Positions 11,621 to 34,945 of a stretch of DNA of 41,498 nucleotides are shown here, piece by piece. The stretch comes from Rhodobacterales bacterium (lineage in GTDB: Bacteria; Pseudomonadota; Alphaproteobacteria; Rhodobacterales; Rhodobacteraceae). The DNA is taken from contig JAPLPF010000204.1 of assembly GCA_026400325.1 (NCBI GenBank), positions 1-41,498 of the forward strand. The letters run 5' to 3'. Numbering within the stretch: the first letter of the stretch is position 1; every line of letters begins with the position of its first letter. The notes below the pieces were generated by a model, which was given only the letters and a program-made list of their open reading frames with translations, was not told where the DNA came from and did not search any database. A program made the translations under genes and the position numbers.

Positions 11621-12355
11621 TTACGCCTCCCGGAATGTTTGCCCACCAGGGCAGCTGCAGCCACCAGTCCCACCAGGTAACCCACTGTTCGAACCAGATG
11701 GTGCCCGAGATCACGATGCAGACCGCGCTCCAGAAACCCGCGTTCAAGGCCAGAAGCAGGCCCAGCCGGTGGATGCCCAGCGTGCCGACCGAATAGCCGA
11801 TGAAATCGCGAAAGAACGTGTCCTCGTGTTCCGGGGTGCGCATTTCCTTGCCCTTTTCAGGGTTGGCCGCTGACAGGATCAGCGCACCATGCAGCGCAAG
11901 CGCCAGCGCGTTGGTGAAAAAGAAGCTCACCGCGATCATGTGCGCCGGGTTGTAGTGGAAGTTTCCATAGTTGTAGCCGGTGTTCGACACCCAATCGAGA
12001 TGGGTGAAGATGCCGTAAGGAAAGTGCGGCAGATTTCGACCTCGCGCAGGGCCCAGCTGACAAAGGCGCAGGCCGCGCACATCGTGATCAACTGCCAAAG
12101 CCCACCCTCTCGCAAGGGTGCGAAGGCCAGGCCGTATTCCACGGGCGGCGGGTCGATCGAGATCAGCCAGGGGTTCCAGACCCCTTCAAGCGCGGTCCCG
12201 TAGAAGATCAGGATCGTGCCAAGGGCTGCAAAGAAGAAGGTCGTGACGCCGAAAAAGCCGACGTAGAACGGACCAACCCAGAAGTCGAAGAGGTTGCCTC
12301 CGACCAGCGTGCCGCCAGGCACGCGATATTTTCGTTCGAAGCTGAGCAATGCCAT
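11613..12355 (-). pseudogene. pufL: Reaction centre L subunit, broken by an internal deletion
   Basis: PufL, partner of PufM, binding the special pair, accessory pigments and quinone B. The 5' part (12355 down to about 12025) encodes the usual N-terminus through [13 protein letters not shown]. The 3' part, in another frame (about 12023 to 11613), encodes [20 protein letters not shown] to the normal end [10 protein letters not shown]. Between them only two bases remain where about 36 codons are expected. A deletion near 12024/12025 has therefore removed about 106 bp, covering membrane helix C and a conserved His-containing loop, and shifted the frame. Read literally, translation stops soon after the junction with no functional reaction centre. 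Both flanks are perfectly conserved, which suggests either a very recent lesion or a sequence-assembly loss. Confidence 0.9.
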
Positions 12356-12436
12356 GCTTCACTCTCCGCTTGGTCCGGGGTCGAGCGATCTGGGCGCGTG
12401 ACGCGTCTGGCCCTGGAATGTGACGTTCTTTCAGAT

Positions 12437-12472
12437 GTTGCGGGCGGCGGCGGTCAGACCGCCGCCCGCAAC
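12437..12472 (-). ncRNA. Stable intercistronic hairpin between pufA and pufL
   Basis: GTTGCGGGCGGCGG (12437-12450) pairs perfectly with CCGCCGCCCGCAAC (12459-12472) around an 8-base loop, 13 bases after the pufA stop. In R. capsulatus a hairpin at this place protects the pufBA segment from 3' exonucleases and gives excess LH1 over reaction centre. The same role is inferred here; it has no U run, so it is not a terminator. Confidence 0.85.
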
Positions 12473-12485
12473 GAAGGCCTTTGGC

Positions 12486-12671
12486 CTACTCGGTCGCAAC
12501 CACGCCTTGTGCAGCCATCGCACGGGCACCAGCTTCTTCAAGCCAGTTGAAGCCGGGCGTGCTGAGAAGCACGAGGTGGATCATCGCGGCCAGAAGGAAC
12601 AGGAACACGCCCTGGGCCACGAAAACCCTGCGGGGGTCGAAGATCAGCCAGATCTTGTAGAACTTGGACAT
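12486..12671 (-). CDS. pufA: LH1 antenna alpha polypeptide
   Basis: A 61-residue light-harvesting 1 alpha chain. [20 protein letters not shown] is the classic N-terminus, and the single membrane helix ends before [10 protein letters not shown]. His32 is the bacteriochlorophyll ligand (AAMIHLVLL), at the standard position. AGGAGG lies just upstream of the ATG. It follows pufB by 13 bases and is followed by the stabilising hairpin at 12437. Confidence 0.97.
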
Positions 12672-12684
12672 CTCTTGTTCCTCC

Positions 12685-12834
12685 TCAGAACCACGGGCGC
12701 CAGATGAACACCGCCAGATGAGCGACGACGGCAACGGTTACGAACAACCAAAGACCGCTCATGTAGACAGAGTGCAGCTCTTGCGCTTGCCCGTCGGTGA
12801 GACCTGTAAAACTCAGGTCGGATTTATCAGCCAT
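12685..12834 (-). CDS. pufB: LH1 antenna beta polypeptide
   Basis: A 49-residue light-harvesting 1 beta chain beginning [20 protein letters not shown]. The two conserved histidines are His21 and His39 ([14 protein letters not shown]), the latter ligating bacteriochlorophyll. A GGAGGA ribosome site lies 4 bases before the ATG. Together with pufA it gives the repeating LH1 unit. Length and sequence are typical of Rhodobacter. Confidence 0.97.
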
Positions 12835-12960
12835 TCGATCCTCCGGATGGGCAGACTGACGCCGCATACCCTGCGGCTGGGTTCACGGGTCGGCGGTATG
12901 CCTCCCCGAGTTTCTCCGCACCCCCCACCCGTCAGACGGAAGGGATACGGTGAATTCTGG

Positions 12961-12989
12961 TCCGGTGGGGCGGGCGCGCGCCCACCGGA
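12961..12989 (-). ncRNA. Hairpin in the pufQ-pufB leader
   Basis: TCCGGTGGG (12961-12969) pairs perfectly with CCCACCGGA (12981-12989) in the 235-base pufQ-pufB interval. A second stem, TCCGGCC/GGCCGGA (13062-13080), overlaps the pufQ stop. In relatives this interval holds 5' processing and stability elements of pufBA mRNA, which is the inferred role. No further gene is visible in the interval. Confidence 0.6.
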
Positions 12990-13069
12990 AAGATCGAGCT
13001 GCCCCAGTTTCCGGGTGCGGCAGAGCTGCCCTCGACGCCAGCGGCGTGTCGGGCAATGACGTCCGGCCC

Positions 13070-13290
13070 TTACGGCCGGAAGATCGCCGGGGTGATGGCC
13101 CCGGCTTCGCGCCAGGCGCGGGCCAGCGGCCCATGCACCGGCATGTGACGGTCGCGGATCATGGCGACCCCCCAGGCCACGGCGGCAAAGGGGATGGCGA
13201 TCAGGAAGATCAGCGAGAAGTAGACATAGAATTCGGCCCGCGGCGTGCGGTGGCCAAGGCCTGAGCCATGGCTTGCGCCGTGGGAATTCG
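13070..13290 (-). pseudogene. pufQ: PufQ, 5' end missing
   Basis: PufQ is a small membrane protein needed for normal bacteriochlorophyll levels, possibly as a pigment carrier. The surviving frame encodes [20 protein letters not shown] followed by a membrane helix ([20 protein letters not shown]), a basic stretch, and the conserved end [20 protein letters not shown]. No plausible start codon or ribosome site precedes it. Upstream sequence in this frame runs directly into bchZ at about 13284-13292, so the pufQ start and the bchZ end have been lost together. The open frame does reach an ATG at 13339, but that lies inside bchZ and is not a credible start. The gene identity is firm; the broken state depends on the accuracy of the sequence. 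Confidence 0.8.
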
Positions 13291-14705
13291 AAAACCACCC
13301 GTTCCGCCCCCTGATCAAGCGCCGATTTCTCGGCCGCATCGCGCAGGGTCCGGGCCGCTGAAATCCTTGTCAGGATCGGATGCTCGCTCACGATCCGGTC
13401 CAGTTCGGCCTGCGCGTCGACATCCCAGGGGAAATCGCGGCGCAGCGTCGTGGGCGTGGCGGCAGCGCTGTCCATCTCGGTGCCCAGCGGCAGGATGTGG
13501 AAAAGCGCATCGAAAAGGCCGTTGCAGACCTCTTGCAAAAGGTAGACCGCGCCGGCGTAGCCCATGAAGGGCGTGCCCGTGGCACGGCGGATTGCGGCAC
13601 CGGGAAAGCTTGCCGGGATGAAGCTTGGCGCGGGTCCATGCCCGCCCTTCAGTTCCGCGAGATACATTTTTTCGTTGATCGACCCCATGACGATCAGCGG
13701 CCGGTGCTGGCGCAGGCCCGCACGCACGGCCTCATTGTTCGTCTTGGTCCCGGCCACCCGCGCCACAGCCAGCGCGCAAGGCAGGCCAAGGTCGGTTTCC
13801 AGATAGTTGCGGATGCCGCGCGTGTAGGTCTCGTTCGCGACAATGGCGAAGCTGGCCGTCGCGAAGAAATCCTGCGTGACGGACCGCCAAAGGTCCCAGA
13901 GGGGCTTCAGCGTGGAATGCTTTTCCTTGGCGATGAACGGCTCGGGGTCCAGACCCAGCATTTCGCCCAGCTGGCGCAGGAATTTCGTGGTGCTTTCGAG
14001 CCCGATGGGCGCTTGCAGGTAGGGCTTGCCCAGACATTCGGCGAGGCCCCGGCCAAACTCGCGGTACATCACCACGTTGACGTCAGCGTTCACCAGGTTC
14101 CGCATCTCGGCCAGATGCGCGCCCAGCGGCATCACCATATTGACATCGGCACCGATGCCTTCGACCAGACGGCGGATCTCGTGCAGATCGCTTGCCATGT
14201 TGAAGGTGCCGTACATCGGCCCCAGAATGTTGACGCGCGGCTTGTCATGGGCTTCGCGCGCCTTTTCGGGTGGCATCCGGCCCTTGGTCATCCCGAACTC
14301 GGTGAAGATCCAGGTCATCGCCCGGTCGGCGCATTGCCACTGGTCCTCATCGATGGTGCGCGGCAGAAAGCGCTGGATGTTGGTGCCCGCCGGGGTGACC
14401 CCGCCACCGATCATCTCGGCAATGCTTCCGGTGACCACCACCGCCGGCAGCGCCGGATCAAGCGTTTTCCAGGCCCGCGCCATCGAGCTTTCCGTGCCCG
14501 ATGACATCTCGCCCTCACCCAGGCCGGTCACGACGATCGGCAACTCATGTGGCGGCAGCGCGTCGGTGTAGTGCAGGACGGATGTCACCGGCAGGTTCTC
14601 GCAACCGACCGGGCCGTCGATCACCACCTGGAGGCCCTTGACGGCACAGAAGGCATAGATCGCCCCCCAGTAGCCGCCTGCCCGGTCATGATCCTGGATC
14701 AGCAT
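13285..14705 (-). pseudogene. bchZ: Chlorophyllide a reductase subunit Z, 3' end missing
   Basis: BchZ forms with BchY the catalytic half of chlorophyllide a oxidoreductase, which reduces ring B in bacteriochlorophyll synthesis. Cys35 (GPVGCENLP), the fourth ligand of the NB cluster in the R. capsulatus system, is present. The protein is well conserved through [19 protein letters not shown] and AERVV at about residue 472. It then runs out of frame into pufQ and pufB sequence, with no proper stop until 12813. BchZ is normally about 480-490 residues, so only the tail and stop appear lost. The start ATG overlaps the bchY stop (TGATG). Activity could survive if the tail is dispensable, but a long aberrant extension would be attached. 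Confidence 0.88.
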
Positions 14706-16273
14706 CAGATCATCTCCTCGGCCTTGGCAGCCTTGGCGGCCTTGTCGAGTTTCTTCTGATGGATCGCGCGGAAGTCGGGCCGCAGGTTCGGCGATCCTTC
14801 CCAGATGCCGGCCGTATCGCCCGTGCCCACACCTTCAAAGAAGTCCTTCATCCCTTCCATGCGGGTCTTGCCGCCAATGGCGGCATTGATGACCTGCGCC
14901 AGCGACCCGGCCCCGGCAGGCCCCATCATGGGTCGGGCAGAAATCAGGTTCGTGAAGTAAAGCGATGGAATCGCTTGCGCTTTCGCCTTCTGCACTACCG
15001 GAGTGGTCCCGATGGCAAGATCAGGCTTGAAGCCCTCCATCGCGGCCAGATCATCCTCGAGGCTGGCGCGGAACTTGATCGCCACGCCCTTGGCTTCCAG
15101 CCAGTCACGATCCGCCGCCGACCATTCGTTGCGTGCGCATGCGGTGCCGACGTAGGGCACATCCGCGCCGCTTTCGATCAAAAGCCGCGCCACCAGAAGT
15201 TCGCTGCCTTCATATCCGCTTAAGGTGATCCTGCCCTTGATCGGCGTCGCGGCAAGCGCACCCTTGATCGAAGGTCCAAAGGCGTTCTGCGCAGCAGCCA
15301 CCTTTTCGGCAGAAATTCCATAGGCTTCACCGATGGCCTTCAACCACCCCATCGTGCCGTCATAACCGACCGGAGCCGACCCCACGACCGCCCGGCCAGC
15401 CGCCTGAAACTCACGGATTGCCGCCGTATAGAACGGATGGATCGCCGCCACGACGCCGCAATCCAGCGCGGCGTAAAGCTCACGCCACTCACGGCACGGA
15501 ACCACAGGGCCAGCCGCCAGTCCCATCGGGGCCAGCATCGCGCCGATCATCATTGGGTCAGCGGGGAACATCTCGCCCAGCAGGGCCACGGCAGGACGAT
15601 CCGACCGACCCCGCTCGGGCGCCTGGACCGGCCCGGCCTCAACCTCGGCGCGGGCGTATTTCAGCATCGCCCCTGCCAGCACGTCCTTGGCCTCGGCATG
15701 GGTCGGCACGCCAAAGCCCGGCACATCGATACCGACGATCCGCACGCCGTTGATTTCGCTTGGCAGCAACTTCAACGGAACACCGGAAGCTGTTGGAACG
15801 CAAAGGTTTGTCACCACAATGGCATCATAGCGGTCAGGGTCGGCAAGTTCATGCACCGCATCGCGGATGTCTTCGAACAGCTTGCCTGTGACCAGCGATT
15901 CCGAGTTGAAGGGCACATAGCCCACCGACCGCCGCGCGCCGTAGAAGTGGCTGACAAAGGTCAGGCCATAGACGCAGCACGCAGACCCTGAAAGCACGGT
16001 CGCCACCCGCCGCATCCGCAGTCCCACGCGAAGCGAGCCGAAGGCCGGGCACATGGATTGTGGTTTGTCGTGCGGGCCTTGCGGGTAGTCCTTCGCGTAG
16101 CCGTCAAGCAGGTCCGAATTTCCCGCCGCCCGCGCCGCCGCGTCCATCTGCGCGGCACCAGCATGGCAACCCATGCCGTCCGTCATGACCTGGGCATCAG
16201 CCCCGGCGCCGGGGCCTTCTCCCCCCGCCTGGGGGTCCGCAGCTACCAGAGTGTGCCGAAGGCCTTCGGTCAC
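14705..16273 (-). CDS. bchY: Chlorophyllide a reductase subunit Y
   Basis: The BchY subunit of chlorophyllide a oxidoreductase. The three cluster cysteines are conserved with R. capsulatus spacing: in SMCPAFGSL, 25 residues later in SACCVYG, and 58 later in VTNLCVPTA. The phrases [10 protein letters not shown] and [20 protein letters not shown] are characteristic. Start: a GTG at 16273 has GGAAGG 7 bases upstream and overlaps a tiny upstream frame as GTGA, giving 522 residues. An ATG at 16186 would give 493, closer to the family length of about 497, but has a poor ribosome site. The first 29 residues ([15 protein letters not shown] region) are low-complexity. The gene is intact, between bchX and bchZ. 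Confidence 0.95.
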
Positions 16274-16344
16274 TTGGCGACCTTCCGGGCTTCCAGCGCT
16301 TTCAAGGCTGCTTCCAGAGCAGCAAGGGCTTCGAGATCACACAT
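16270..16344 (-). CDS. Possible 24-residue coupling peptide between bchX and bchY
   Basis: A short frame begins with an ATG at 16344, overlapping the bchX stop by 8 bases, and ends with a TGA that overlaps the bchY GTG start (GTGA). It encodes a Leu/Ala/Glu/Lys-rich peptide (starts MCDLEALAALEAALK, ends ARKVAK) that should form an amphipathic helix. The strong bchY ribosome site GGAAGG lies inside it. It may be a translated coupling leader, or the original N-terminal part of BchY displaced by an indel. No homologue is known to me. Confidence 0.4.
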   Translation of the reverse strand: MCDLEALAALEAALKALEARKVAK

Positions 16345-17330
16345 TGTCATACACCACTTCCAGCGAAGGTTTGACGGCGGCGTTCTTGCCGCGCATGTCA
16401 GCGTCGGTCGCCGGGGTCAGCACGAAATCCGCCCCAGTGGTTTCCGCGCTGAAAAGGCCCAGAAGGCCATCCTGCGACAGCGGCTTCGGTTTCACCGGCG
16501 GCGCTTCGGCCACGGCAATCCCAAGCTGTTCGAACATTGGGCCCCACTGGCTTTCATACGAGCCAACGATCTGATAATTCGCCGATTTCTTGCGCAGGTC
16601 ATCATCCTGCGGGATCGCTGCCAGCACCGGGATGCCCACGGCGTCCGCGAAAGCCGCCGCTTCACCCGTGCCGTCGTCCTTGTTTATGACCAGCCCCGCG
16701 ATGCCGACATTGCCTGCGGAAGTATTCCACCGCCGAACACACGTTGTTGGCGACGTACAAGGACTGCAGGTCGTTCGAGGCGACGAGGATCACCTTCTGT
16801 GCCATGTCGCGGGCAATCGGCAGGCCAAACCCGCCGCAGACCACATCGCCCAGAAAGTCGAGCAGGACATAGTCGAAGTCCCAGTCGTGGAACCCCAATT
16901 TCTCAAGCAGTTCAAAGCCATGGATGATCCCGCGCCCACCGCAGCCCCGGCCAACCTCCGGTCCGCCAAGTTCCATCGCAAAGACGCCACCGCGCTTGAA
17001 GCAGACATCGCCGATCTTGACCTCTTCCCCGGCAAGCTTCTTGCGGGTCGAGGTTTCGATGATTGTCGGGCAAGCCTTGCCGCCGAACAGAAGGCTGGTG
17101 GTGTCGGATTTCGGATCGCACCCGATGAGAAGGACCCGTTTGCCCATCTCGGCCATCATGTGGCTGAGGTTGGCCAGCGTGAACGACTTGCCGATCCCGC
17201 CCTTGCCATAGATCGCGATGATCTGGGTCTTTTTTGACGGCGGATCATGGGGGATCTCCAGCGTCGGCTCTTCATGGGCCTCCTCGCGCAGGCGGGCATC
17301 GAAGGACTTCAGGTTCGGTACGTCGTTCAT
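16337..17330 (-). pseudogene. bchX: Chlorophyllide a reductase iron protein, frameshifted
   Basis: BchX is the NifH-like ATP-dependent electron donor to BchYZ. The 5' part encodes the P-loop IIAIYGKGGIGKSFTLANLS, the switch region LIGCDPKSDTT, and both cluster cysteines (VGRGCGGRG and DVVCGGFG), through SAVEYFR. The frame then breaks near 16714/16715. The other frame continues NVGIAGLVINKDDGTGEA and GIPVLAAIPQDDDLRKKSAN to the normal end LEVVYDNV. Where the family has KLGG only four bases (AGGC) remain, so about 8 bases are missing. Literal translation ends at 16662, removing the last third. The start ATG overlaps the bchC stop (ATGA). Confidence 0.9.
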
Positions 17331-18271
17331 GCGTGGCCCTTCCAGTCGAGAATCATTTTCAGGCAGCCCGCGTCGGTGAAAGCGGTCTCATAGGCCTGTG
17401 CTGCATCGGCAGCGGGGCGGTGATGGGTGATCAGACCCGACAATGACAGCGCGCCACTTTCGATCAGCGACCGGGTGGCAGTCAGGTCTTCGGGCGCCCA
17501 TTCGCTGGCAATCCGAAAGCGCGCCTCTTTCATGAAGGCGGGCGGAAAGGCAAAGGCGACGGGGTCGGTGTAAAAGCCGGCCAGCACGATCTCGCCACCC
17601 TTTTTCAGGCGCATGACCAGCTGGTCCAGAAGACCAGGTGCACCGCTTGCGTCATAGATCGCGCGATAGTCGCGGCGCGGGTCATCCTGAGGGTCGATGA
17701 CGGGGTAACCCGGTGCCCCTTCCCGACGAATCGGGTTGGTCTCCCAGACCGTTGGCGCAGGCGCACCGGCCGCAAGGGTCAGCCGGGCCAGAAGGCGGCC
17801 AAGGGTGCCATGCCCCACGATCAGGTCAGGAAGGGCGGTGTTGAACCCGGCCAGCGCATGCCGCGCCGTTGCCGCCAGCGCCAGAAGCGCGCCTTCCGCC
17901 CCCATGCCCGAATCGATCCGCGCCACGCGGGAGGCTTTGGTCACCAGATGCCGCGAGGCGCCACCGAAGAGGCCCCTTACATTGCCGGTAAAGCAGTTTG
18001 CGCCGGGCACAAAGACCGTCTCACCAACACGAAAGCCGGTGTCGGCTCCAGCCTCGACCACCGTGCCCGCGGCCTCATAGCCCGGAACCAGTGGATAGCC
18101 CATGCCCGGAAAGGGCGGCATCGTGCCGGACCAGAACAGCTTTTCCGTCCCGGTGGAGATGCCGGAATGCAAAACCTCGACGACCAGATCATCCGGGCCG
18201 GGGGCCACAAGACCCAGGGTTTCCAGCCCCAGCTTTCTTGCCCCTTGCAGGATAACTGCCGTCGTTTGCAC
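17327..18271 (-). CDS. bchC: Bacteriochlorophyllide a dehydrogenase
   Basis: A 314-residue zinc-dependent alcohol-dehydrogenase-like enzyme that oxidises the 3-hydroxyethyl group to 3-acetyl, the last ring step before phytylation. [20 protein letters not shown] and [15 protein letters not shown] are diagnostic, with the nucleotide-binding region [15 protein letters not shown]. The GTG at 18271 is used ([20 protein letters not shown]), with GGAGAG a few bases upstream; the frame is open to 18304 but without a ribosome site. It is the first gene of the bchCXYZ-puf superoperon and sits directly behind two PpsR operators. Confidence 0.96.
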
Positions 18272-18306
18272 GTCTGTCTCTCCCCGGCGGCAGTCTGCGG
18301 CCATAG

Positions 18307-18324
18307 TGTAAGTTTAACCTTACA
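18307..18324 (-). promoter_or_regulatory. PpsR/CrtJ operator, bchC proximal
   Basis: TGTAAGTTTAACCTTACA is a TGT-N12-ACA palindrome covering the bchC -10 region. It is separated by exactly 8 bases from a second operator, the spacing known for cooperative CrtJ binding at bchC. Confidence 0.92.
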
Positions 18325-18338
18325 TTTCAGACTGTCAA
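18311..18338 (-). promoter_or_regulatory. bchC promoter (-35/-10)
   Basis: On the minus strand TTGACA (18338-18333) is followed after 16 bases by TAAACT (18316-18311), a good sigma70-like pair. One PpsR palindrome covers each box, as described for the R. capsulatus bchC promoter. Confidence 0.7.
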
Positions 18339-18350
18339 TTTAATTAGACA
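18333..18350 (-). promoter_or_regulatory. PpsR/CrtJ operator, bchC distal
   Basis: TGTCAATTTAATTAGACA is the second TGT-N12-ACA palindrome. It covers the -35 box of bchC and overlaps the end of crtF, whose stop is at 18340-18342. Confidence 0.92.
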
Positions 18351-19482
18351 GTTTCGGGAGGGAATCTGCAGGCGCCGTGGCGGTCAGGGTCGACGTCACG
18401 AACGGCCGCAAGCTGCGCACCGGCGAGATGGCGTCAAACCCTGCCTGCCTCAGCAATCCGGCGATCTCGGAGGCCGACCGTGTTCTGCCGGTCTGCATCG
18501 CCAGGGTGTAAACGGTGAAGTAGACATCGGTCGCCGGATCAGGCCGCGCGCCGCCTGACATCGGCTCGGAAATGATCAGCCGACCGCGGGGGGGCAGCGC
18601 CTGCCGGACATTGGCCAGCAAGGCCGCCACGGTGGCATCGGAATGGTCATAAAGGACGCGGATCAGGCTGATCGCATCCGCGCCTTGCGGCAGGGCCTCG
18701 TCGCGAAAGCTGCCGGGCAGGATCGCGACATCCGCCCCCAGCCGCGCCCGCGCCCCGGCGACGACCGCAGGCAGGTCGAACAGCGTGCGGCGCAGGCCCG
18801 GATGCGCCTGGCCGACCGCTGCCAGAAACGCTCCGGTCCCGCCGCCCACGTCCATCAGATGCGTGATCCCGCGAAAATCCACCAGCCGCAGCGTGTCTTC
18901 CGCCACCAGCCCCTGGCTGTCGGCCATCAGATCGGAATAGCGCGCGGCAAGGTCGGGGTCAGCCGCCCCGCCCGCACCAAAGACATAGGGCCAGAAGCCT
19001 GCCAGTTCAGGCGAGGTTTCGCCCCGGAAAAAGGCAACCGGATCAGCCAGATCGCGGTAAAGGACCGGATGATGCCGCACCATCGCCTCCAGCCCCGGCA
19101 CGGTCAGAAAGGCCGCACCGCGCGTGGTCAGGTGCCAGTCGTCACCCTTGCGCCGAACCAGTTTCAGCGCCGCTCCGGCCTGCAGCAGCACGGCCATCCG
19201 GTCGGAGGGTACGCCGCACAGGGGGGCCAGCCGGGCCGTCGGCAGCGGCCCCTCGGCCAGACGGTGCAGCACGCGCAATTCCACCAGCGCCAGCAGCGCC
19301 TGGCTTTGCACAAAGCCCGAAACGATGGAGAACAGCGCCGATCCTTCGGCTTTCGCGATCCCGCTCAGGCCCGGAACCCGGGCGCAAAGGCGGTGGAACC
19401 AGGGTTGCAACGCAAGCTTTGCCGCCCAGCCCGGGCCTTTGCGCGGGCGGGGCAGCCCGGCATCAAGGCCGGTCTCGGTCAT
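18340..19482 (-). CDS. crtF: Demethylspheroidene O-methyltransferase
   Basis: A 380-residue SAM-dependent methyltransferase that methylates the C-1 hydroxyl of demethylspheroidene to give spheroidene. There is an N-terminal dimerisation/winged-helix part with [15 protein letters not shown], then the SAM motif [19 protein letters not shown] at about residue 212, and [20 protein letters not shown] near the active site. It starts with an ATGA overlap on the crtE stop, so crtE-crtF form one operon reading toward bchC. The stop lies within the distal bchC operator, so transcripts from crtEF run into bchC, the classic superoperon arrangement. Confidence 0.95.
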
Positions 19483-20384
19483 TTTGCCGCCGCGACCCGC
19501 GAGGTTGCTTGCGCCCCAAGATCAACCGGCGTCATCTTTTCGGCATAGGCGCGCACCAGACCGGCCAACCTCGCCTCGCCCGGGCAGGACGGGATCGAGG
19601 CGATGGCCCCGCCAAGGATGTCCTTCAGATGCCGGACCGCGCCCTGCACGCCCATCAAGGCAACCGCATTCGGACGGCCGTGCGCCGCGTCCTGTCCTGC
19701 GGGCTTGCCGGTTTCCTCGGCTGTCAGCAGCGCGTCCTTCAGATCGTCGGCCACCTGAAACGCCTCACCGATGCGGGCGCCAAGTTCTTCCCAGGGTTCA
19801 GGCTCTTGCCCGGCCGAGATCGCGCCAAGCTGGGTTGCCGCCACGAAAAGCGCCCCCGTCTTGGCCCGGTGATAGGCTGCAAGGTTGACCGTGGGTTCCG
19901 ATTCCCAGCCCTGCCCCGCACAGATGCCGCCCGGCATGCCGGTGCGCTGCGCCAGCGCCAGCACCAGCCGCAAGGCCCGGTCAGGCGCGACAGTACCAGC
20001 CCGCGCCAGCACCTCGAAGGCAAGGACGATCAGGCTGTCGCCGGCAAGAATTGCCAAAGGCTCGCCATAGGCGCGGTGAACCGACGGCTTGCCACGCCTG
20101 AGGTCGGCGTTGTCGAAGGCGGGCAGGTCGTCATGGACAAGGCTGGCGCAATGGATCAGCTCCAGCGCCACCGCCGCCGCATCCGACAGCGCGGGCCGGT
20201 CGTCGCCGCAGGCCAGCGCGACCGACAGAAGAATGGTGGGCCGGATCCTTGCACCGCCTGACATCGTGGCATGGCCCAGGGCCGCCGCCAACCGTTGCGG
20301 CACCGCCTCGGCCCCGGCAGGTGAACGTTGGCCCAGAAGGACAGCCCCGGCAAGCGCGGATTCTAGTCTTGTGGAAAGGTCCAT
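19479..20384 (-). CDS. crtE: Geranylgeranyl diphosphate synthase
   Basis: A 301-residue prenyltransferase making C20 geranylgeranyl-PP, the branch-point precursor for carotenoids and for the bacteriochlorophyll tail. The first aspartate-rich motif is [20 protein letters not shown] (DDxxxxD) and the second is FQVADDLKD (DDxxD). Lys/Arg positions near GARIRP are typical. The ATG at 20384 is used; the longer open frame to 20441 is intergenic. Promoter-proximal sequence carries a PpsR operator shared with the divergent crtD. Confidence 0.96.
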
Positions 20385-20454
20385 CACACACCTGCAAGCC
20401 AGCCGGGTGGCCCCGGTGGCACCCTGACGCAAGACTGGCACCGGGGGGGGCAGT

Positions 20455-26076: not shown

Positions 26077-26092
26077 GCTGGGGATGATACGG

Positions 26093-26110: not shown

Positions 26111-26167
26111 ACTACCCTGTTCATGCGGCAAAACAGCCCCTTCCCGTGCGAATGTTTTGCGATAGAC

Positions 26168-26185
26168 TGTCAGTGTTTTCTTACA
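26168..26185 (+). promoter_or_regulatory. PpsR/CrtJ operator of crtA
   Basis: TGTCAGTGTTTTCTTACA is a TGT-N12-ACA palindrome 12 bases upstream of the crtA ATG, with the crtA ribosome site (GGAGG) immediately after it. Confidence 0.92.
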
Positions 26186-26197
26186 CTGGAGGCACGC

Positions 26198-27157
26198 ATG
26201 CCCACCGCCAGCCTCAGCCTCTTCCGCTTTCAGGGCGTCTTGCCCCGGCTTTGGGCCGTCGGCCAGATGGGGGCCGCCCGTCTGGCCCTGCGGCGCGAAC
26301 CGCATCTCATGTTCTGGAAACTGTGCGGGTCGGGCACGGGCGAAGGCTTTACGCCAAAGCCGAACATGGGGGTCTGGGCAATCCTTGCGGTCTGGCCGGA
26401 CGAGGCGGCAGCGCGGGCCGGAACGGCCAGCAGCCCGGTCTGGCGACGCTGGCGCAGGAAGGCCCGCGAAAGCAGCACGGTGTTCCTGTCGCCCCTGTCT
26501 TCGCGCGGGTCCTGGGGCGGCGTCAATCCCTTTGTCCCCGAACCGCACCCCGCCGATCCCGAAGGCCCGCTGGCCGTCCTGACCCGCGCCAGCGTCAAGC
26601 CGGGCCGGGCGGTGCGGTTCTGGAAGCGGGTGCCCGACATCTCGGCCGTTATCGGCGCTGACCCCGATGTCCTTTTCAAGATCGGCATCGGCGAAGTACC
26701 GCTTTTGCACCAGATCACATTCTCGATCTGGCCCGACGCCGCCTGCATGACCCGCTTTGCCCGGGGTGACGGTCCGCATGGCCGGGCGATCAAGGCCGTG
26801 CGCGAAGAAGGCTGGTTCACTGACGAGCTTTACGCCCGGTTCCGCGTCCTTGGGGTCGAGGGGCGGTGGAACGGTGTGCCGCTTCTGGCCAGCCCGACCC
26901 GGACCGCGCCAGCCCCGCTTGCACATGCCGCAGATACGGTGCTGACGGGCCGAGCCTCTTGCCCGGTCGCCCTCGCCACGCAAGGGGGGAAATCCCCTGC
27001 GACCCTCAGCCGAAGGGGGCCAGGCACCCAATCCAGCGGGATTGTGCCCGCCAACCCCATGATACATGGCGCAGGCGCATTGCATACGACCCACACCCGC
27101 CCCTTGCAGGAGGCGCCTCTCCTTCCCCCTGCCGGAAAGGGCTTTGGCCACACATGA
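26198..27157 (+). CDS. crtA: Spheroidene monooxygenase, with an unusual C-terminal tail
   Basis: CrtA oxidises spheroidene to spheroidenone, the keto-carotenoid made in the presence of oxygen. Conserved parts are HLMFWKLCGSGTGEGFTPKP, SPLSSRGSWGGVNPFVP, FWKRVPDISAVIGADPDVLF and KIGIGEVPLLHQITFSIWP. After VLGVEGRWNGVPLLASP, near residue 232, family members as I recall them end soon. Here the frame stays open for about 80 further residues of Pro/Arg/Ala-rich sequence with no family resemblance, probably translated intergenic DNA (total 319 residues). The ATG has GGAGG in front of it. bchI starts 46 bases after the stop, so crtA heads the crtA-bchIDO operon. Confidence 0.93.
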   Translation: MPTASLSLFRFQGVLPRLWAVGQMGAARLALRREPHLMFWKLCGSGTGEGFTPKPNMGVWAILAVWPDEAAARAGTASSPVWRRWRRKARESSTVFLSPLSSRGSWGGVNPFVPEPHPADPEGPLAVLTRASVKPGRAVRFWKRVPDISAVIGADPDVLFKIGIGEVPLLHQITFSIWPDAACMTRFARGDGPHGRAIKAVREEGWFTDELYARFRVLGVEGRWNGVPLLASPTRTAPAPLAHAADTVLTGRASCPVALATQGGKSPATLSRRGPGTQSSGIVPANPMIHGAGALHTTHTRPLQEAPLLPPAGKGFGHT

Positions 27158-27203
27158 CACCCGGCTTTCCCGATCTTGCCCTGCCCTGCCGCATGAGGAC
27201 CCG

Positions 27204-28214
27204 ATGACCCAGCGCCAACCCTTTCCGTTCTCGGCCATCGTCGGCCAGGAGGACATGAAGACCGCCATGATCCTGACGGCCGTCGATCCAGGCATCGGCG
27301 GCGTTCTGGTTTTTGGCGACCGGGGCACCGGCAAATCCACGGCCGTCCGCGCGTTGGCAGCGCTTCTTCCGCCGATCGAGGTGGTCGAGGGTTGCCCCGT
27401 GAACTCTCCCCGGCGCGCGCTTTCGCCGGACTGGGCGCAGGGCGTGACCGACCGGATCGTGACCCGGCCTACCCCCGTTGTCGATCTGCCGCTTGGCGTG
27501 ACCGAAGACCGGGTGGTGGGCGCCCTTGACATCGAACGCGCGCTGACCCGGGGCGAAAAGGCGTTTGAGCCGGGCCTGCTGGCCCGGGCGAACCGCGGGT
27601 ATCTTTACATCGACGAGGTCAACCTCTTGGAGGATCACATCGTCGACCTGCTGCTTGACGTCGCGCAGTCGGGCGAGAATGTGGTGGAGCGTGAGGGCCT
27701 GTCGATCCGACACGCCGCACGCTTTGTGCTTGTGGGGTCCGGCAACCCCGAGGAAGGCGAGCTTCGCCCGCAGCTTCTGGACCGGTTTGGCCTTTCGGTC
27801 GAGGTGGCAAGCCCCAGGGACATCGAAACCCGGGTTGAGGTCATCAAGCGGCGCGATGCCTATGAAAACAGCCATGACCGTTTCATGAAGACCTGGCGGC
27901 CGATGGATGCGGGGTTGCGCAACCAGATCCTTGCCGCGCGTGCGGCGCTGCCAAAGCTGAAAACCCCCGGTGCCGTGCTGCATGACTGCGCGGCCTTGTG
28001 CATCGCGCTTGGATCAGACGGGCTGCGGGGCGAGTTGACACTTTTGCGCGCAGCCCGAGCTCTTGCCGCCTTCGAGGGTGACACGGCCGTGCACCGCAGC
28101 CACCTGCGCAGGGTGGCACCGCTGGCGCTGTCGCACCGGCTTCGCCGCGACCCGCTGGACGAGGCGGGATCGGCGGCCCGGGTCAGCCGGTCTCTGGCCG
28201 AGGTGCTGCCCTGA
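27204..28214 (+). CDS. bchI: Magnesium chelatase subunit I
   Basis: The 336-residue AAA+ ATPase of magnesium chelatase, which inserts Mg2+ into protoporphyrin IX with BchD and BchH. Walker A is GDRGTGKST and Walker B is RGYLYIDEVNLL. ENVVEREGLSIRHAARFVLV and GSGNPEEGELRPQLLDRFGL are the insert and sensor regions. The family begins with FPFSAIVGQEDMK, so the ATG at 27204 is used rather than the open frame upstream to 27066. The bchD ATG lies 5 bases after the stop. Confidence 0.97.
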   Translation: MTQRQPFPFSAIVGQEDMKTAMILTAVDPGIGGVLVFGDRGTGKSTAVRALAALLPPIEVVEGCPVNSPRRALSPDWAQGVTDRIVTRPTPVVDLPLGVTEDRVVGALDIERALTRGEKAFEPGLLARANRGYLYIDEVNLLEDHIVDLLLDVAQSGENVVEREGLSIRHAARFVLVGSGNPEEGELRPQLLDRFGLSVEVASPRDIETRVEVIKRRDAYENSHDRFMKTWRPMDAGLRNQILAARAALPKLKTPGAVLHDCAALCIALGSDGLRGELTLLRAARALAAFEGDTAVHRSHLRRVAPLALSHRLRRDPLDEAGSAARVSRSLAEVLP

Positions 28215-28219
28215 CCAGA

Positions 28220-30151
28220 ATGTCACCTCCCAGCGCCACCGACACCCGGTCTGCGGACCCTGTGGCAGCGCCCCCCCCGGCCGTGGGCGAGGTGGCGTCG
28301 GCCTTGCCATGGGCGCGGGTGTGGCTGGCGCTGATGGCGCTGGCGGTCGATCCGGCGGGGCTGAAGGGGCTGTGGCTGCGGTCGCGCGCAGGCCCGGTGC
28401 GCGACCGGGTGACCGACGTGCTGTCCGAGGCTTTGCCCCTGCCCCACCGCCGCCTGCATCCGGCCCTGGGGGATGAGGCGCTTTATGGTGGCCTTCACCT
28501 GACCGCCACCCTTGCCGCAGGGCGCCCCGTCCGGTCCGAAGGGCTTTTGGCGCGGCCGTCGGCCCTGGTCCTGACCATGGCGGAACGTTGTCCCGCCGGG
28601 CTTGCCGCACGACCGCTGGGCGGTCCCGGTCATTGCCTCATTGCGCTGGACGAAGGGGCCGAGCCCGAAGAGGCGCTGCCCCCGGCGCTGGCGGACCGAC
28701 TGGCATTGTTCCTGACGCTGGACGGTCTCGCCGATGCCGATGCCCCGCCCCTTGTGCTGGACATGGCCCGGATCACCAAAGCGCGCGCGCAGCTTGCCAC
28801 CGTGCGGGTGCCGAAGGCTGCGTTCAGGCAACTGACCTCTGTGGCGCTTGCGCTGGACATCCCGGGGCTCCGCGCGCCGCTTCTGGCGTTGCAGCTTGCG
28901 CGGGTGGTCGCCGCATTGCGTGGCCACGCTGGCATCCGGCGCGACGACCTGACAACAGCGGCAGAACTGGTCTTTGCACATCGGGCACGGGCAATGCCGC
29001 AGGCCGAGGCCGAAGCACCCCCACCCCCCTCGCCCGAGCCCGACCCGGGAAGCGAACCCGACGCGCAGACCGAAAGTCTGGACCTGCCCGACGAGTTGAT
29101 GCTTGAAGCCGTGAAGGCGGCCTTGCCCGCCGATCTTCTGGACCGTCTGGCCGCCGCGCGGGCTGCGCGCGCAATGGCAGGGGGCACCGGGTCGGGCGAG
29201 GCGAAGGTCGGCCACCGGCGCGGCCGGCCCCTGCCCTCACGCCCCGGGCGGCCCGACAGCGGGCACCGGCTTGACCTGATCGCCACCCTGCGCGCGGCGG
29301 CCCCATGGCAAGCCGTGCGCCGACGCGAGGTTTCGGCCACGTTGTTTCCGCCCCCCACCGCCATCCCCTCTCCACAAGGAGGAGGGATGGAGCCTGAGAC
29401 CACGCTGCGCCCTTGGGGAAATCACCCTGACGCAGCCATGCCACCAGCGCCCCCCTCCCCCCTCGTGGGCGAGGGATGGGGTGGGGGGGGCATCCCCACG
29501 TCACCGGACCCCGTATTGCCGGATCGCCGCCTGCACATTCGCCCAGCCGACTTGCGCATCCGTCGCCATCAGGAACGGACGGAACGGGTGGTGATCTTCG
29601 CCGTCGATGCCTCGGGGTCCGCCGCCCTGGCCCGGTTGGCTGAAGCAAAGGGGGCGGTCGAACTTCTTCTTGCCCGGGCCTATGCACGGCGCGACCATGT
29701 GGCGCTGATCGCCTTTCGCGGGGCTGGGGCCGACCTGGTGCTGCCGCCGACCCGGTCGCTGGTGCAGACCAAGCGACGGCTCGCAGGGCTGCCGGGCGGC
29801 GGAGGCACGCCCCTGGCTGCAGCCCTCAGGCTGGCCCATGACACGGCCCTTCGGGCGCGAGCGCGCGGGCTGACGCCGGTGTTGGCCCTCCTGACCGACG
29901 GGCGGGCGAATGTCGCCCTGGACGGCGGCCCGGGCCGTGATCGGGCCGAAGCGGACACCGCCCGGATGGCGCGTCTTTGGCGGGCAACCGGGGCCGCTTC
30001 GGTGGTGATCGACACCGCCAGCCGCCCCGAGGCCGGGCTGAAACGGCTGTCGGCGGCGATGGGCGGGGTCTATCTGCCCCTGCCCCGCGCCGATGCCGCG
30101 CGGATGTCGACGGCGCTTGAGGCGGCGCTGGGTCCGGTGCAGTCTGCCTGA
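28220..30151 (+). CDS. bchD: Magnesium chelatase subunit D, with an in-frame insert
   Basis: BchD pairs with BchI rings in magnesium chelatase. It has a degenerate AAA+ N-terminal half, an acidic/proline linker (AEAEAPPPPSPEPDPGSEP, about residues 262-280) and a C-terminal integrin-I (VWA) domain with the metal-binding phrase VVIFAVDASGSAALARL. Length is 643 residues, against about 560 in R. capsulatus. Most of the excess is an in-frame stretch at about residues 377-432, encoded by two GC-rich palindromes that look like an intergenic repeat element. It sits before RRLHIRPADLRIRRH, at the linker/VWA boundary, where an insert may be tolerated. Stop TGA and bchO ATG abut. Confidence 0.95.
   Translation: MSPPSATDTRSADPVAAPPPAVGEVASALPWARVWLALMALAVDPAGLKGLWLRSRAGPVRDRVTDVLSEALPLPHRRLHPALGDEALYGGLHLTATLAAGRPVRSEGLLARPSALVLTMAERCPAGLAARPLGGPGHCLIALDEGAEPEEALPPALADRLALFLTLDGLADADAPPLVLDMARITKARAQLATVRVPKAAFRQLTSVALALDIPGLRAPLLALQLARVVAALRGHAGIRRDDLTTAAELVFAHRARAMPQAEAEAPPPPSPEPDPGSEPDAQTESLDLPDELMLEAVKAALPADLLDRLAAARAARAMAGGTGSGEAKVGHRRGRPLPSRPGRPDSGHRLDLIATLRAAAPWQAVRRREVSATLFPPPTAIPSPQGGGMEPETTLRPWGNHPDAAMPPAPPSPLVGEGWGGGGIPTSPDPVLPDRRLHIRPADLRIRRHQERTERVVIFAVDASGSAALARLAEAKGAVELLLARAYARRDHVALIAFRGAGADLVLPPTRSLVQTKRRLAGLPGGGGTPLAAALRLAHDTALRARARGLTPVLALLTDGRANVALDGGPGRDRAEADTARMARLWRATGAASVVIDTASRPEAGLKRLSAAMGGVYLPLPRADAARMSTALEAALGPVQSA
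29349..29513. repeat. Palindromic GC-rich repeat element inside bchD
   Basis: Two imperfect hairpins lie 60 bases apart: CCATCCCCTCTCC/GGAGGAGGGATGG at 29361-29390, and CCCCTCCCCCCTCG/CGAGGGATGGGG at about 29454-29481. Such stretches (reading PSPLVGEGWGGG in one frame) are common as dispersed intergenic repeats in alphaproteobacteria. Edges are estimated from where BchD similarity stops and restarts; the insert adds about 55 codons without breaking the frame. Confidence 0.65.
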
Positions 30152-31009
30152 ATGACCGATGATCCTCCAAAGGACTGGCCCCTTCGCACCCATGCCCGCC
30201 GCATCCGCGCCCGGCATGACTGGTGGGTGGTCGAACACGGGACCGGTCCGCAGGTGCTGCTTTTGCACGGCGCCGGGGCTTCGGGCCATTCGTTCCGGTC
30301 GCTGGTGCCCGCCCTGGACGGCTTTCGCTGCCTGGTGCCCGACCTGCCGGGCCAGGGCTTTACCAGGCCCGGATCGCGGGGCCGCTTCGGCATCCAGCCC
30401 ATGGCCGAGGATCTGGCAGCCCTTTGCGCGGCGGCCGGGTGGGCGCCCCGCTATGTGATCGGCCATTCGGCGGGGGTGCCGCTGGGTCTGCAACTGTCAA
30501 CGCTGATGCCCCTTGACGCCGTCATCGGGATCAACGCGGCGCTTGGCCAGTTTGACGGCGCTGCCGGGTTCCTGTTTCCCCTTCTGGCGCGGGCTTTGGC
30601 GGCGACGCCGTTCGTGCCTTCTGTCGTCAGCCGGCTTTGGGGCAATGAAGCCAAGGTCCGGCAGTTGATCGAGGGCACCGGCTCACACCTTGATGCCGAC
30701 GGTATCGCGCAATACGCAACCCTGGTCCGGCGCGCAGGCCATGTCGACGGAACGCTTGGGATGATGGCCGCCTGGCGGGTGGACCAACTGATGGCGGGGG
30801 CGTCCGGTCTGACGGTTCCGACGCTGCTGATTGCAAACGCAGGCGACAAGGTGGTGCCGCCGCGCGTGTCGGCCGAGGCGGCCCGGATGCTGCCCCGGGC
30901 AGAGGTCCGCGAGATGCCGACCCTGGGCCATCTGTCGCATGAAGAAGACGCCAGAGCGGTGCTTGCGGTCATGAAGGACTGGCTGCGCGGCCACGGCCAA
31001 ATTTCTTGA
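30152..31009 (+). CDS. bchO: BchO, alpha/beta hydrolase of the magnesium chelatase operon
   Basis: A 285-residue alpha/beta hydrolase found with bchID in Rhodobacter. Its exact role in bacteriochlorophyll synthesis is not settled. The oxyanion-hole region VLLLHGAGASGHSFR and the nucleophile elbow GHSAGVPLGLQL (Ser) are clear. An Asp in LLIANAGDKVVPP and a His in TLGHLSHEEDARAVL complete a plausible triad. The ATG immediately follows the bchD stop. The gene's own stop lies inside the inverted repeat shared with the convergent idi. Confidence 0.93.
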   Translation: MTDDPPKDWPLRTHARRIRARHDWWVVEHGTGPQVLLLHGAGASGHSFRSLVPALDGFRCLVPDLPGQGFTRPGSRGRFGIQPMAEDLAALCAAAGWAPRYVIGHSAGVPLGLQLSTLMPLDAVIGINAALGQFDGAAGFLFPLLARALAATPFVPSVVSRLWGNEAKVRQLIEGTGSHLDADGIAQYATLVRRAGHVDGTLGMMAAWRVDQLMAGASGLTVPTLLIANAGDKVVPPRVSAEAARMLPRAEVREMPTLGHLSHEEDARAVLAVMKDWLRGHGQIS

Positions 31010-31021
31010 GGAAGAAATTTG
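30998..31021. terminator. Bidirectional terminator between bchO and idi
   Basis: CAAATTTCTT (30998-31007) and AAGAAATTTG (31012-31021) form a perfect 10-bp stem with a 4-base loop, embedding the bchO stop codon. It is AT-rich in GC-rich surroundings and lies between two convergent operons, so a shared transcription end is likely. Confidence 0.7.
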
Positions 31022-31033
31022 CGGGTTTTCGCT

Positions 31034-31585
31034 TCAGCGCACGCTCATCAGCCGATCACCGAAGATGCGGTCAAGGTGGTCGGTCAGGTAGATGTGCAGC
31101 CAGGGGGTAAAGCGGTCGGGTTGGCGCAGCACTTCGGCCTTCAGATCGTAAAGATCGACCCAGCGCACGGCTTCCACCTCGGCGGGGTTGGGCGTGATCC
31201 CAAGACCGGAACCAGCCTCGGCGACGAAGATATCGACAAGCTCGTGCTCGATCAGGCCGCGCCCGACATCGGCGCGGTATTCGACGCGGCCGGAATAGCT
31301 GGGGTAAATCCCGGTGATCCCAAGTTCCTCGCGCAGACGGCGGATCGCACAGGTTGCGGCCTCTTCGTCCCAGCGGGGATGCGTGCAGCAGGTGTTGGCC
31401 CAAAGGCCGGGCGTGTGGTACTTGCCCGCCGCGCGCTTCTGGATCAGGACCCGCGGGCCGTCCATCACGAAGACCGACACCGCCTTGTGGCGCAGACCTC
31501 GCTGGTGCGCCGCAAGCTTGCCCACCGGGGTCAGATGTCCGTCCACCCAGGCGGGAATCATTTCTTCCAGGCTGCCGTCCATCAT
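31034..31585 (-). CDS. idi: Isopentenyl-diphosphate delta-isomerase (type I)
   Basis: A 183-residue Nudix-fold isomerase interconverting isopentenyl-PP and dimethylallyl-PP, the ORF176 protein of the R. capsulatus cluster. The active-site cysteine phrase ANTCCTHPRWDEEA and the Nudix-like ATCAIRRLREELGI are intact, with glutamates in GLIEHELVDIFVAE. The ATG at 31585 overlaps the bchP stop (ATGA) and is preferred over 31594. It ends the bchE-J-G-ORF428-P-idi operon, supplying isoprenoid precursors beside the geranylgeranyl reductase. Confidence 0.95.
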   Translation of the reverse strand: MMDGSLEEMIPAWVDGHLTPVGKLAAHQRGLRHKAVSVFVMDGPRVLIQKRAAGKYHTPGLWANTCCTHPRWDEEAATCAIRRLREELGITGIYPSYSGRVEYRADVGRGLIEHELVDIFVAEAGSGLGITPNPAEVEAVRWVDLYDLKAEVLRQPDRFTPWLHIYLTDHLDRIFGDRLMSVR

Positions 31586-32766
31586 CCGACCCATCCGGGC
31601 CGAACCCAGCCCAGGAGATGCATCACGTTCTTCACGCCGATCTTCAGATGGGCCAGGGGCCGCGCGGCGACAAGCTTCTTGTTCATGTAGGCCTCGAACG
31701 TCAGTTTTTGTACATCGGTGTCATGGCACAAGCTGACAAAGCGTTCCCGGCGGTCGTCCGACTTGTAGTAGGCGTCCTGCATAGACCGCAGCACCTTGAA
31801 CACGGTCTTGTTGTCCTTCATGAACAGTTTTCGCGCCAGTTTCAGGTCCTTTGCCTGGCCCGAGGCAAGGCAGGCCTGCGCCGCCGTGGCCGCAACCCGC
31901 CCACCCAGCATGGCGTAGTAGATCCCTTCACCGGACGAGGGGGCAACCACCCCCGCAGCATCACCCGCCAGCACCACGTCGCGGCCATTGTCCCACTTGT
32001 CCAGGGGTTTCAAGGGGATCGGCGCGCCTTCGCGGCGGATCGTCTCGCAGCCTGTCAACCCTGCCGAGGCGCACAACGCTGCCGTGGCTTCCTTCAGGTT
32101 CACCCCGTCAATGCCGGTGCCCATCCCCACGCTGGCCTGATCGCCATGCGGGAAGACCCAGCCGTAGAAATCGGGGGAAATCCGGCCGTCATAGATCACG
32201 TCGCAGCGGCCGGGGTCATAGTCCTTGTTCGCAACAGGCGCCTTGATGATCTCGTGGTAGGCGATGACGTAAGGGATGGTGTCGCCGCCCGGACCCTCAT
32301 CCCGGGCCACAACCGACCGCGCGCCATCGGCACCGATGATCAGCTTCGTCAGACTGCGCCGTTCCTCGCCGCTGGCCTTGTCGCGCCAGACGACATGGGT
32401 GCCGACTGCGTCCCTCTCGATCCTGAGGTAGGTGCCGGTCAGTCGGTCCGCCCCGGCCGAAACCGCGCGGACCCGCAGGAATTCGTCGAAATGTTCGCGG
32501 TCCACCATGCCGACATAGCCCTTCTCGATATGGATATCGACCGACCGGCCCGTGGGCGAAATCATGCGCGCCACATTGACCTTGGCGACGATCATGTCTT
32601 CCGGAATGGCGAAATCCTGGATCGCCCGGGGCGGGACAGCACCGCCGCAGGGCTTGATCCGGCCATCGCGGTCCAGCATCGCCACACGCTTGCCCGCACG
32701 GGCAAGATCCTCGGCTGCTGTTGCCCCGGAAGGACCGCCGCCGACAACGAAGACGTCATAGGTCAT
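31582..32766 (-). CDS. bchP: Geranylgeranyl reductase
   Basis: A 394-residue flavoprotein that reduces the geranylgeranyl tail of bacteriochlorophyll to phytyl in three steps. The N-terminal FAD motif YDVFVVGGGPSGATAAEDLA begins at residue 3. RDGRIKPCGGAVPPRAIQDF and VVLAGDAAGVVAPSSGEGIY are diagnostic. The ATG at 32766 is used; the longer open frame overlaps the transporter gene. The gap to the upstream gene is one base, so they are cotranscribed. Intact. Confidence 0.96.
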   Translation of the reverse strand: MTYDVFVVGGGPSGATAAEDLARAGKRVAMLDRDGRIKPCGGAVPPRAIQDFAIPEDMIVAKVNVARMISPTGRSVDIHIEKGYVGMVDREHFDEFLRVRAVSAGADRLTGTYLRIERDAVGTHVVWRDKASGEERRSLTKLIIGADGARSVVARDEGPGGDTIPYVIAYHEIIKAPVANKDYDPGRCDVIYDGRISPDFYGWVFPHGDQASVGMGTGIDGVNLKEATAALCASAGLTGCETIRREGAPIPLKPLDKWDNGRDVVLAGDAAGVVAPSSGEGIYYAMLGGRVAATAAQACLASGQAKDLKLARKLFMKDNKTVFKVLRSMQDAYYKSDDRRERFVSLCHDTDVQKLTFEAYMNKKLVAARPLAHLKIGVKNVMHLLGWVRPGWVG

Positions 32767-32767
32767 C

Positions 32768-34054
32768 TTACTCTCCAGGAACGAGTTGAGGGGATGGCGC
32801 GCGCAGTCGCCCGCCGTCAATGATCCGCCAGGCCATCAGGCCGGCGGCAAGAAAAAGGGCGGCTTCGATCACGAAGACCGCGCCGAAGGCATCCGCCGTG
32901 TCACCCGACAGGCGCAGCACATCGACCAGCGCCGCCCCGGCAAAGCCCCCGGCCCCTTGCGCGATGGCCTGACTTGCGCCCCAGACCCCCATCCGCGTGC
33001 CCTCACGCCCGGGCCGACCCTGGCCTGCAAGCTGCATCATCGCCCCGATCGACGCGATGGCGAACATGCCCGAAAAGACGCCCAGCACGGCCACGGCAGG
33101 CGTCAGGAACCCGATGCCAAGTTGCCCCAGGGCCGCGATCACCGCGAGCATGACAGCAGACCCGACGCAGCCCGCCGTGACCCAGGCCCGCAGCGACCCG
33201 ATCTTCAGGCCCGACACCGCGATGCCCACCGCCAGCATGCCGACGAACATGCCGCCGTGCTGCGCGCCCGACAGGCCGGTGGACTGGCCCGGCGAAAAGG
33301 CGAAGACAAGGCCGGCATAGGGCTCAAGGATCAGTTCCTGCAGGAAGAAGGCGGTCATCGACAGGAAGATGAACAGGGTAAAGACGCGGGTCCGCGGCTC
33401 GGCCCAGATCTCGGCCAGTCCTTGCATCAGCGGGGTTTCATCGGGCAAGCGGGCAGGAATGACCCGGCGCTCGATCCCTTGGACGGCGACCGCGGTCAGC
33501 ACGACCGCGCCAAGCGTGACCACCGCGACAATCGCCATCAGGCGCTGCGGTGAGTAGGGATCCAGCAGCGCGCCGATCACGCCAGAGGTGACGGCGATGC
33601 CGAAGATCATCATCAGCCAGGTGATCGTGGCTGCAGCCGCCCGACGCTCTGGTGCGCAGCCGCTGGCCAGAAGCGCCAGCAGGGACGTGCCCGACGCCCC
33701 GGCCCCAATCCCGATCAGCGCATAGGCCAGAACCGACACCGCCAGCCCCCAGCCCTGCCCGGCGCTGCCCATGGCAACCATCAGCGAGGCAAGAAAAGCC
33801 CCGCCCGACAGGATCGCCATGCCGCCGACAATGAATCGCGTGCGGTTGCCTTGTGCGTCGGACCAGAAGCCCCAGCTGGGCCGGGTGATCTGGACAAAGG
33901 AATGCAGCGCCACCAGTGCCCCCGACAGCATCGCCGGCAGCGCCAGTTCCACCACCATCAGCCGGTTGAGCGTTGACGTCGTCAGCACCACCACCGCGCC
34001 AAGGCACAACTGCACCAGACCAAGCCGCACGATCTGAAGCCAGCCAAGCGTCAT
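32768..34054 (-). CDS. BCD-family MFS transporter (ORF428/PucC-like)
   Basis: A 428-residue, 12-helix major-facilitator protein of the bacteriochlorophyll-delivery (BCD) family, related to PucC and LhaA. It corresponds to ORF428 between bchG and bchP in R. capsulatus, whose length is identical. Its role is probably handling bacteriochlorophyll for complex assembly. Family phrases are LNRLMVVELALPAMLSGALV, RPSWGFWSDAQGNRTRFIVG and LILEPYAGLVFAFSPGQSTG. The ATG at 34054 overlaps the bchG stop (ATGA). The frame runs open to 34732, but that part is a shadow of bchG. Confidence 0.93.
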   Translation of the reverse strand: MTLGWLQIVRLGLVQLCLGAVVVLTTSTLNRLMVVELALPAMLSGALVALHSFVQITRPSWGFWSDAQGNRTRFIVGGMAILSGGAFLASLMVAMGSAGQGWGLAVSVLAYALIGIGAGASGTSLLALLASGCAPERRAAAATITWLMMIFGIAVTSGVIGALLDPYSPQRLMAIVAVVTLGAVVLTAVAVQGIERRVIPARLPDETPLMQGLAEIWAEPRTRVFTLFIFLSMTAFFLQELILEPYAGLVFAFSPGQSTGLSGAQHGGMFVGMLAVGIAVSGLKIGSLRAWVTAGCVGSAVMLAVIAALGQLGIGFLTPAVAVLGVFSGMFAIASIGAMMQLAGQGRPGREGTRMGVWGASQAIAQGAGGFAGAALVDVLRLSGDTADAFGAVFVIEAALFLAAGLMAWRIIDGGRLRAPSPQLVPGE

Positions 34055-34945
34055 GCCAGCCCCCGCAGCGCAAAGGCGGTAACCATCATGCCGGCAACGT
34101 AAAGGACCACCCCGGTGCCGTTGTACCACGGCGCCTTGCCCTTGGGGTCCCTGAACAGAACCCGCATCGCGGCGATCTGGGCGGCAAGAAGTGCCGCAAC
34201 CGCCAGGGCGTGCCAAGGCTTGTCCAGCACCAGCAGGAAGCAGACCACCAGCGCTTGCGCCATGCCCATCACCGTGCAGGCGATCCTGGCGGCAACTTCG
34301 GGCCCAAGGACAACCGGCAAGGACCGGACGCCGTGCAGGCGATCGCCTTCCAGGGCCTTGAAATCGTTCAATGTCATGATGCCATGCGCCCCAAAGGCAT
34401 AAAGGGCGGCCATGGTCACGGTCTCGAACCTCGGCGCAGTCCCCAGCAGCACCGCGGCACCGGTGAACCAGGGCAGACCTTCGTAGGAAAGCCCCACCAG
34501 ACCCGGACCCCACCAGCCCGAGCGTTTCAGCCGGATCGGCTCGGCCGAATAGGCCCAGGCAGCAATGACGCCAACCACCGTCGCGCCGAACCCCCAGGGG
34601 CCGAGAAGCCAGCCGACGGCGAGGCTGAGGACGGTCATCGCAAGCGCGATCCACAGCCCCCAGCGGCCGGGGATGCGGCCGGATGGGATGGGGCGGTCGG
34701 GTTCGTTCACGGCGTCGACGTGGCGGTCGCACCAGTCATTGGCGGCCCATCCCGCAGACGATGGGACCGGCAAGGATCATGCCAAGAAGGACAGTCTGCC
34801 AATTCGCGCCAAGCGGGATGCCGGACGACACCGCACCGCACAGAAAGGCCCAGATCGGCGGGAACCAGGTGATCGGCTTGATCAGCCGCAGCATGGCGCG
34901 CGGTTCGGGATATTGCCGTGTTTGGAAGGTATCGCTGACACTCAT
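34051..34945 (-). pseudogene. bchG: Bacteriochlorophyll synthase, frameshifted
   Basis: BchG is a UbiA-type membrane prenyltransferase that attaches the C20 tail to bacteriochlorophyllide a. The first 65 codons are normal: MSVSDTFQTRQYPEPRAMLR, IKPITWFPPIWAF and LAGPIVCGM. At 34747/34748 the frame changes. The other frame continues AANDWCDRHVDAVNEPDRPI, the conserved prenyl-diphosphate motif (NxxxDxxxD type), to the normal end. The family has SQ between M and AA; ATG followed by GGCC implies loss of about 5 bases. As written, translation stops at 34736. No ribosome site precedes the ATG, and a PpsR operator abuts it. Confidence 0.9.

Follow-up and report, generated by a model that had tools for sequence, protein, structure and literature searches.

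Short sequence losses in a photosynthesis gene cluster of a Rhodobacteraceae draft genome are very probably assembly artefacts

The losses that interrupt photosynthesis genes in this draft genome are very probably artefacts of assembly, caused by scaffolding or gap-joining errors that would extend over the whole genome; comparison with related genomes leads us to place the probability of this reading at about 0.96. In the part of the draft that was examined, genes of many functions lack short stretches (2 to 146 bp at the sites measured) or, in a few cases, contain an inserted or exchanged one. Three observations support the artefact: lesions occur elsewhere at a rate similar to that of the window (the whole stretch of 41,498 nucleotides that was analysed), 5 of 15 of them lie on N runs, and some of the broken genes are single-copy ones that a cell is expected to need. 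We found no evidence here for a loss of phototrophy in the organism, a reading that is unsupported because the lesions reach beyond the photosynthesis genes, including tolC within the window itself. The features concerned are as follows.

1..41498, no strand: the whole contig (C75), one of 233 contigs in the draft, without N
5990..5993 (about 5990), minus strand: probable tolC joint, 30 bp of a conserved stretch missing and frame kept
12024..12025, minus strand: pufL joint, 106 bp missing and frame broken; segment carried by 20 of 20 flank-matched relatives
13273..13284 (about 13283/13284), minus strand: bchZ/pufQ joint, 67-88 bp missing relative to 7 of 7 relatives aligned
16713..16747 (about 16714), minus strand: bchX joint, 8 bp missing relative to 7 of 7 relatives
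24410..24419, minus strand: crtB joint, 43 bp missing by DNA alignment with one relative only (G005)
34742..34770 (about 34747), minus strand: bchG joint, 5 bp missing relative to the 3 of 3 relatives aligned there

Frame switches were located by comparing the window in six frames with the proteins of four relatives of the same genus, and the lengths of the losses were obtained from DNA alignments. Both approaches confirmed the five losses and the accompanying frame switches at the places named in the original prediction, which had estimated about 106 bp for pufL, 8 bp for bchX, 43 bp for crtB and 5 bp for bchG; the measured values were 106, 8, 43 and 5 bp. The loss at the bchZ-pufQ junction, for which no size had been proposed, is also present, and amounts to 67, 67, 75, 85, 85, 85 or 88 bp depending on the relative used. 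It removes approximately the last 21 codons of bchZ, which is truncated at the junction, together with the first codons of pufQ. The 106 bp of pufL are missing in comparison with all seven relatives in the DNA alignment, and the segment is carried by every one of the 20 same-genus relatives that match both flanks (11 of 31 gave no match); in one of these 20, G028, arithmetic gives 107 bp, with a one-base indel nearby. For crtB, the frame break is also visible against the proteins of G002 and G023, and the alignment of seven relatives gave none there. Close relatives having the same shorter sequences in frame were also looked for, and this check did not refute the original prediction.

The flanks of the five losses are clean and align well to the relatives. 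NCBIfam names the intact counterparts in G005 as BchX, CrtB, BchG, BchZ and PufL. No NCBIfam model matched the pufQ-like ORF of G005 at E 1e-12, and pufQ is a putative name for it. Inspection of the aligned joints by eye revealed no evident direct repeat, and a deletion between short repeats was for this reason judged unlikely. Among the best 80 of 593 named genome records with a pufM relative, 77 have a pufL that keeps a single frame for 250 residues or more; two of the exceptions begin at the end of the record. In the third, a Tabrizicola sp. Prado224 MAG (L084) that is publicly available, pufL matches in one frame only to residue 243 of 293, and this stop may mark a further joint.

The original prediction had limited the losses to five photosynthesis genes. 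These five stood, but the list was not complete, as a probable sixth lies in a non-photosynthesis gene inside the window. The gene at 4971-6482 (minus strand), assigned to the TolC family by NCBIfam, lacks 10 residues of a conserved stretch in comparison with four of four relatives. At the DNA level the 30-bp gap is clean, and both of the relatives alignable there (two of five) carry the 30 bp. Judging from these alignments, the gap probably marks a sixth joint resembling the five others; it had been overlooked because the frame is kept. In-frame gap clusters near 26891-26918, 28613 and 35627-35646, seen against three relatives, were taken as ordinary variation. Small in-frame insertions at 7926 and 21976-22035, present against all four relatives compared, are probably ordinary variation as well.

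To what extent the window differs from the remainder of the draft was assessed with a single relative, G005, as reference (1.2 Mb plus its photosynthesis region, ∼29% of the genome). From the 232 other contigs of the draft, 40 were sampled, up to 20 kb each; six consisted wholly of N, which left 34 usable, and the G005 ORFs of at least 100 residues were searched against the draft contigs. Raw frame switches were found in 20 of 170 genes outside the window and in 5 of 35 within it. Five doubtful rows were dropped outside: for R|220331, P|2711 and R|635235 the start assigned to the reference ORF is probably too early, R|804792 falls in a tRNA region, and R|827596 was removed as well. One row, an antisense ORF over the puf genes, was dropped inside. 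The retained frame breaks amount to 15/165 outside, a count that depends partly on our own filter, versus 4/34 in the window (Fisher p = 0.75); keeping R|635235 and R|827596 gives 17/167 (p = 0.76). The bchZ/pufQ joint truncates rather than switches frame and is not among these counts; when it is counted into the window, p = 0.36. Both inside and outside the window, there is about one retained break for every 9 to 11 kb of coding sequence that was aligned. There was no sign of a difference between the break rate of the window and that of the rest of the draft.

These numbers bear directly on the possibility that the photosynthesis cluster underwent a real and very recent multi-hit inactivation, in a laboratory or environmental lineage that has given up the use of light. 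Five broken photosynthesis genes whose flanks align well to the relatives are what such an event would leave, but the lesion rate is similar elsewhere in the draft, the one clear glmM of the draft and its one birA match are affected too, and tolC in the window is also short of 30 bp; we regard this inactivation as extremely improbable. Natural decay, a recent lineage-specific loss and mutator-like deletion were likewise rejected on the draft-wide rate and the genes affected. A natural loss of phototrophy would be expected to concentrate lesions in photosynthesis genes; instead, lesions of the same type occur across the draft regardless of gene function, as is expected of an assembly artefact.

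It is also expected of such a loss that single-copy essential genes are spared, and glmM and birA, both of them expected to be essential, are broken. For birA the draft has a single match, which ends at position 130 of 235; 76 bp are then missing and the rest continues in another frame, whereas most of the family length is found in 30 of the 31 other members of the genus, G012 being the exception. The only glmM above the family cut-off is split, with positions 1-373 in one frame and 382-441 in another. It is a weaker case than birA, because the break amounts to only 2 bp and the 69 residues beyond it are less similar (70% alike, versus 92%). In 28 of 31 other genus members glmM is whole and in one frame; in G008 it keeps one frame but runs off the end of its contig, in G012 it lies in three pieces, and in G009 no match above the cut-off was found. 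As the draft is 90% complete, the assembly could have missed another copy of either gene. Also broken outside the window are nuoM, ctaD (cytochrome oxidase subunit I) and recJ, the latter on an N run. A CdsA-like gene is broken too, but its essentiality cannot be invoked here, because the draft also contains another, whole member of that family.

A real wave of small deletions over the whole genome, as might follow failed repair or occur in a dying population, would have reached the photosynthesis genes by chance. Such a wave would be in agreement with lesions that are spread over the examined contigs and are mostly deletions. We nevertheless consider it very unlikely, given that the lesions reach single-copy genes presumed to be essential, that N runs stand at 5 of the 15 lesions, that at one site an overlap is repeated on either side of Ns and that another is a stretch without match to the gene. 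Similarly, a real population with fresh, blunt small deletions in many genes, whose essential products would come from other copies or minority variants, seems to us barely credible.

The marks left at the lesions outside the window point instead to assembly. The 34 readable contigs contain 13 short N runs of 8-65 bp. Where such runs cross genes (five sites), the run is shorter than the sequence of the relative by 17, 23 and 28 bp at three sites and fits it to about 1 bp at a fourth. At the fifth, 34 N are flanked on either side by an identical 16 bp. N runs or overlapping flanks, as an artefact would leave, accompany 5/15 of the lesions outside the window, one of them with the duplicated 16-bp flanks. 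The ten other retained breaks outside are free of N: eight are deletions of 2, 20, 37, 76, 88, 101, 119 and 146 bp, and the remaining two are a 32-bp insertion in ctaD and a replaced stretch in nuoM (contig C32, L175, ∼18968-19087). The lesions outside the window are thus similar in size to those within it. In nuoM, ∼118 bp between the matching parts gave no tblastn match in the NuoM of the relative, which looks like a wrong fill. A second copy of this odd stretch was not found in the draft. Its identity as a piece of a transporter was considered and dropped, since Pfam returned only YesK (E = 0.018, below the cut-off) and the search of the draft gave no other copy.

For metagenome-assembled genomes, local assembly errors have been described by Chen et al. 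2020 (PMC7111523), including N runs set despite overlapping flanks in IDBA-UD and CLC assemblies. Their errors and those of the present draft are alike in that wrong or missing stretches spoil protein-coding genes, and one site of the draft shows the same N run despite overlapping flanks. Their diagnosis uses mapped reads, whereas the one made here comes from relatives and the draft-wide rate.

The contig sequence was checked at the six joints of the window, and no N is present at any of them. One could imagine that N runs originally stood at these joints and were later stripped from the contig by a handler, in which case the losses would still be artefacts. The short N runs of 8-65 bp kept by other contigs of the draft are in line with this, but C75 has no N at all while N runs are still present in other contigs, and N is likewise absent at 10 of the 15 breaks retained elsewhere; we find later stripping unlikely. 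Under the assembly error that we favour, neighbouring contigs would have been scaffolded or gap-closed with wrong gap sizes, and some would have been joined directly, without N; six such joints would lie inside the window. The exact joining step of the assembler is inferred, because the six joints carry no N. The living organism most likely keeps bchX, bchZ, pufQ, pufL, crtB and bchG whole, with a phototrophic potential as in its relatives. Between the two interpretations initially offered, local loss of sequence in assembly is thus the one favoured by the rate, the N runs and the state of glmM and birA, while the recent non-phototrophic lineage is not supported, given the lesions in tolC and the other genes.

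Matching regions of other genomes of the genus, searched with the same G005 proteins, served as controls. The raw counts were 0/20 in G001, 4/44 in G002, 1/42 in G023, 2/18 in G008, 3/17 in G025 and 3/17 in G012. The four switches of G002 were judged by position to be antisense or shadow ORFs, and all those of G023 and G008 as well as two of G025 were judged by position and identity to be antisense, shadow or over-long ORFs. After this filter, breaks remained only in G025 (1/17) and G012 (3/17), both of them drafts in many contigs. The controls indicate that such breaks also occur in some many-contig drafts, and are unseen in real genes of better-assembled ones. In G012 (L039 and contig C323), the frame breaks affect dxs, tolC and a third gene of the cluster, and glmM lies in three pieces; these breaks are the same class of error as in the present draft.

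The draft genome comprises 233 contigs and 3.56 Mb; its listed completeness is 90.4% and its listed contamination 1.35%, and despite these values about one gene in 11 (15/165 in the examined part) is broken at a joint. Claims of gene loss or pseudogenes made from this draft would consequently often be false. Caution is warranted, and the genus has at least one further draft with similar breaks, G012.

The draft is likely a metagenome bin, and the organism is most likely an ordinary bacterium of the Tabrizicola/Rhodobacter type whose photosynthesis gene cluster is whole. Among its relatives in the same genus are Rhodobacter sp. YIM 73028 (G002) and a MAG from a pond (G023), and the closest PufM among named genomes, within the best 80 of 593 records with a pufM relative, is that of a Tabrizicola MAG (95%). 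Matches to the window in a plasmid collection came from 9 records, all at 60-80% identity. The window resembles the photosynthesis gene clusters of Tabrizicola/Rhodobacter-like Rhodobacteraceae: from ∼1.8 kb to its end, it is largely colinear with G005 and G023. It differs from them in the six short losses at joints, which are absent from the compared relatives. In G002 (L027 and L028), the part matching ∼22999-30991 of the window is inverted with respect to the window, G005 and G023.
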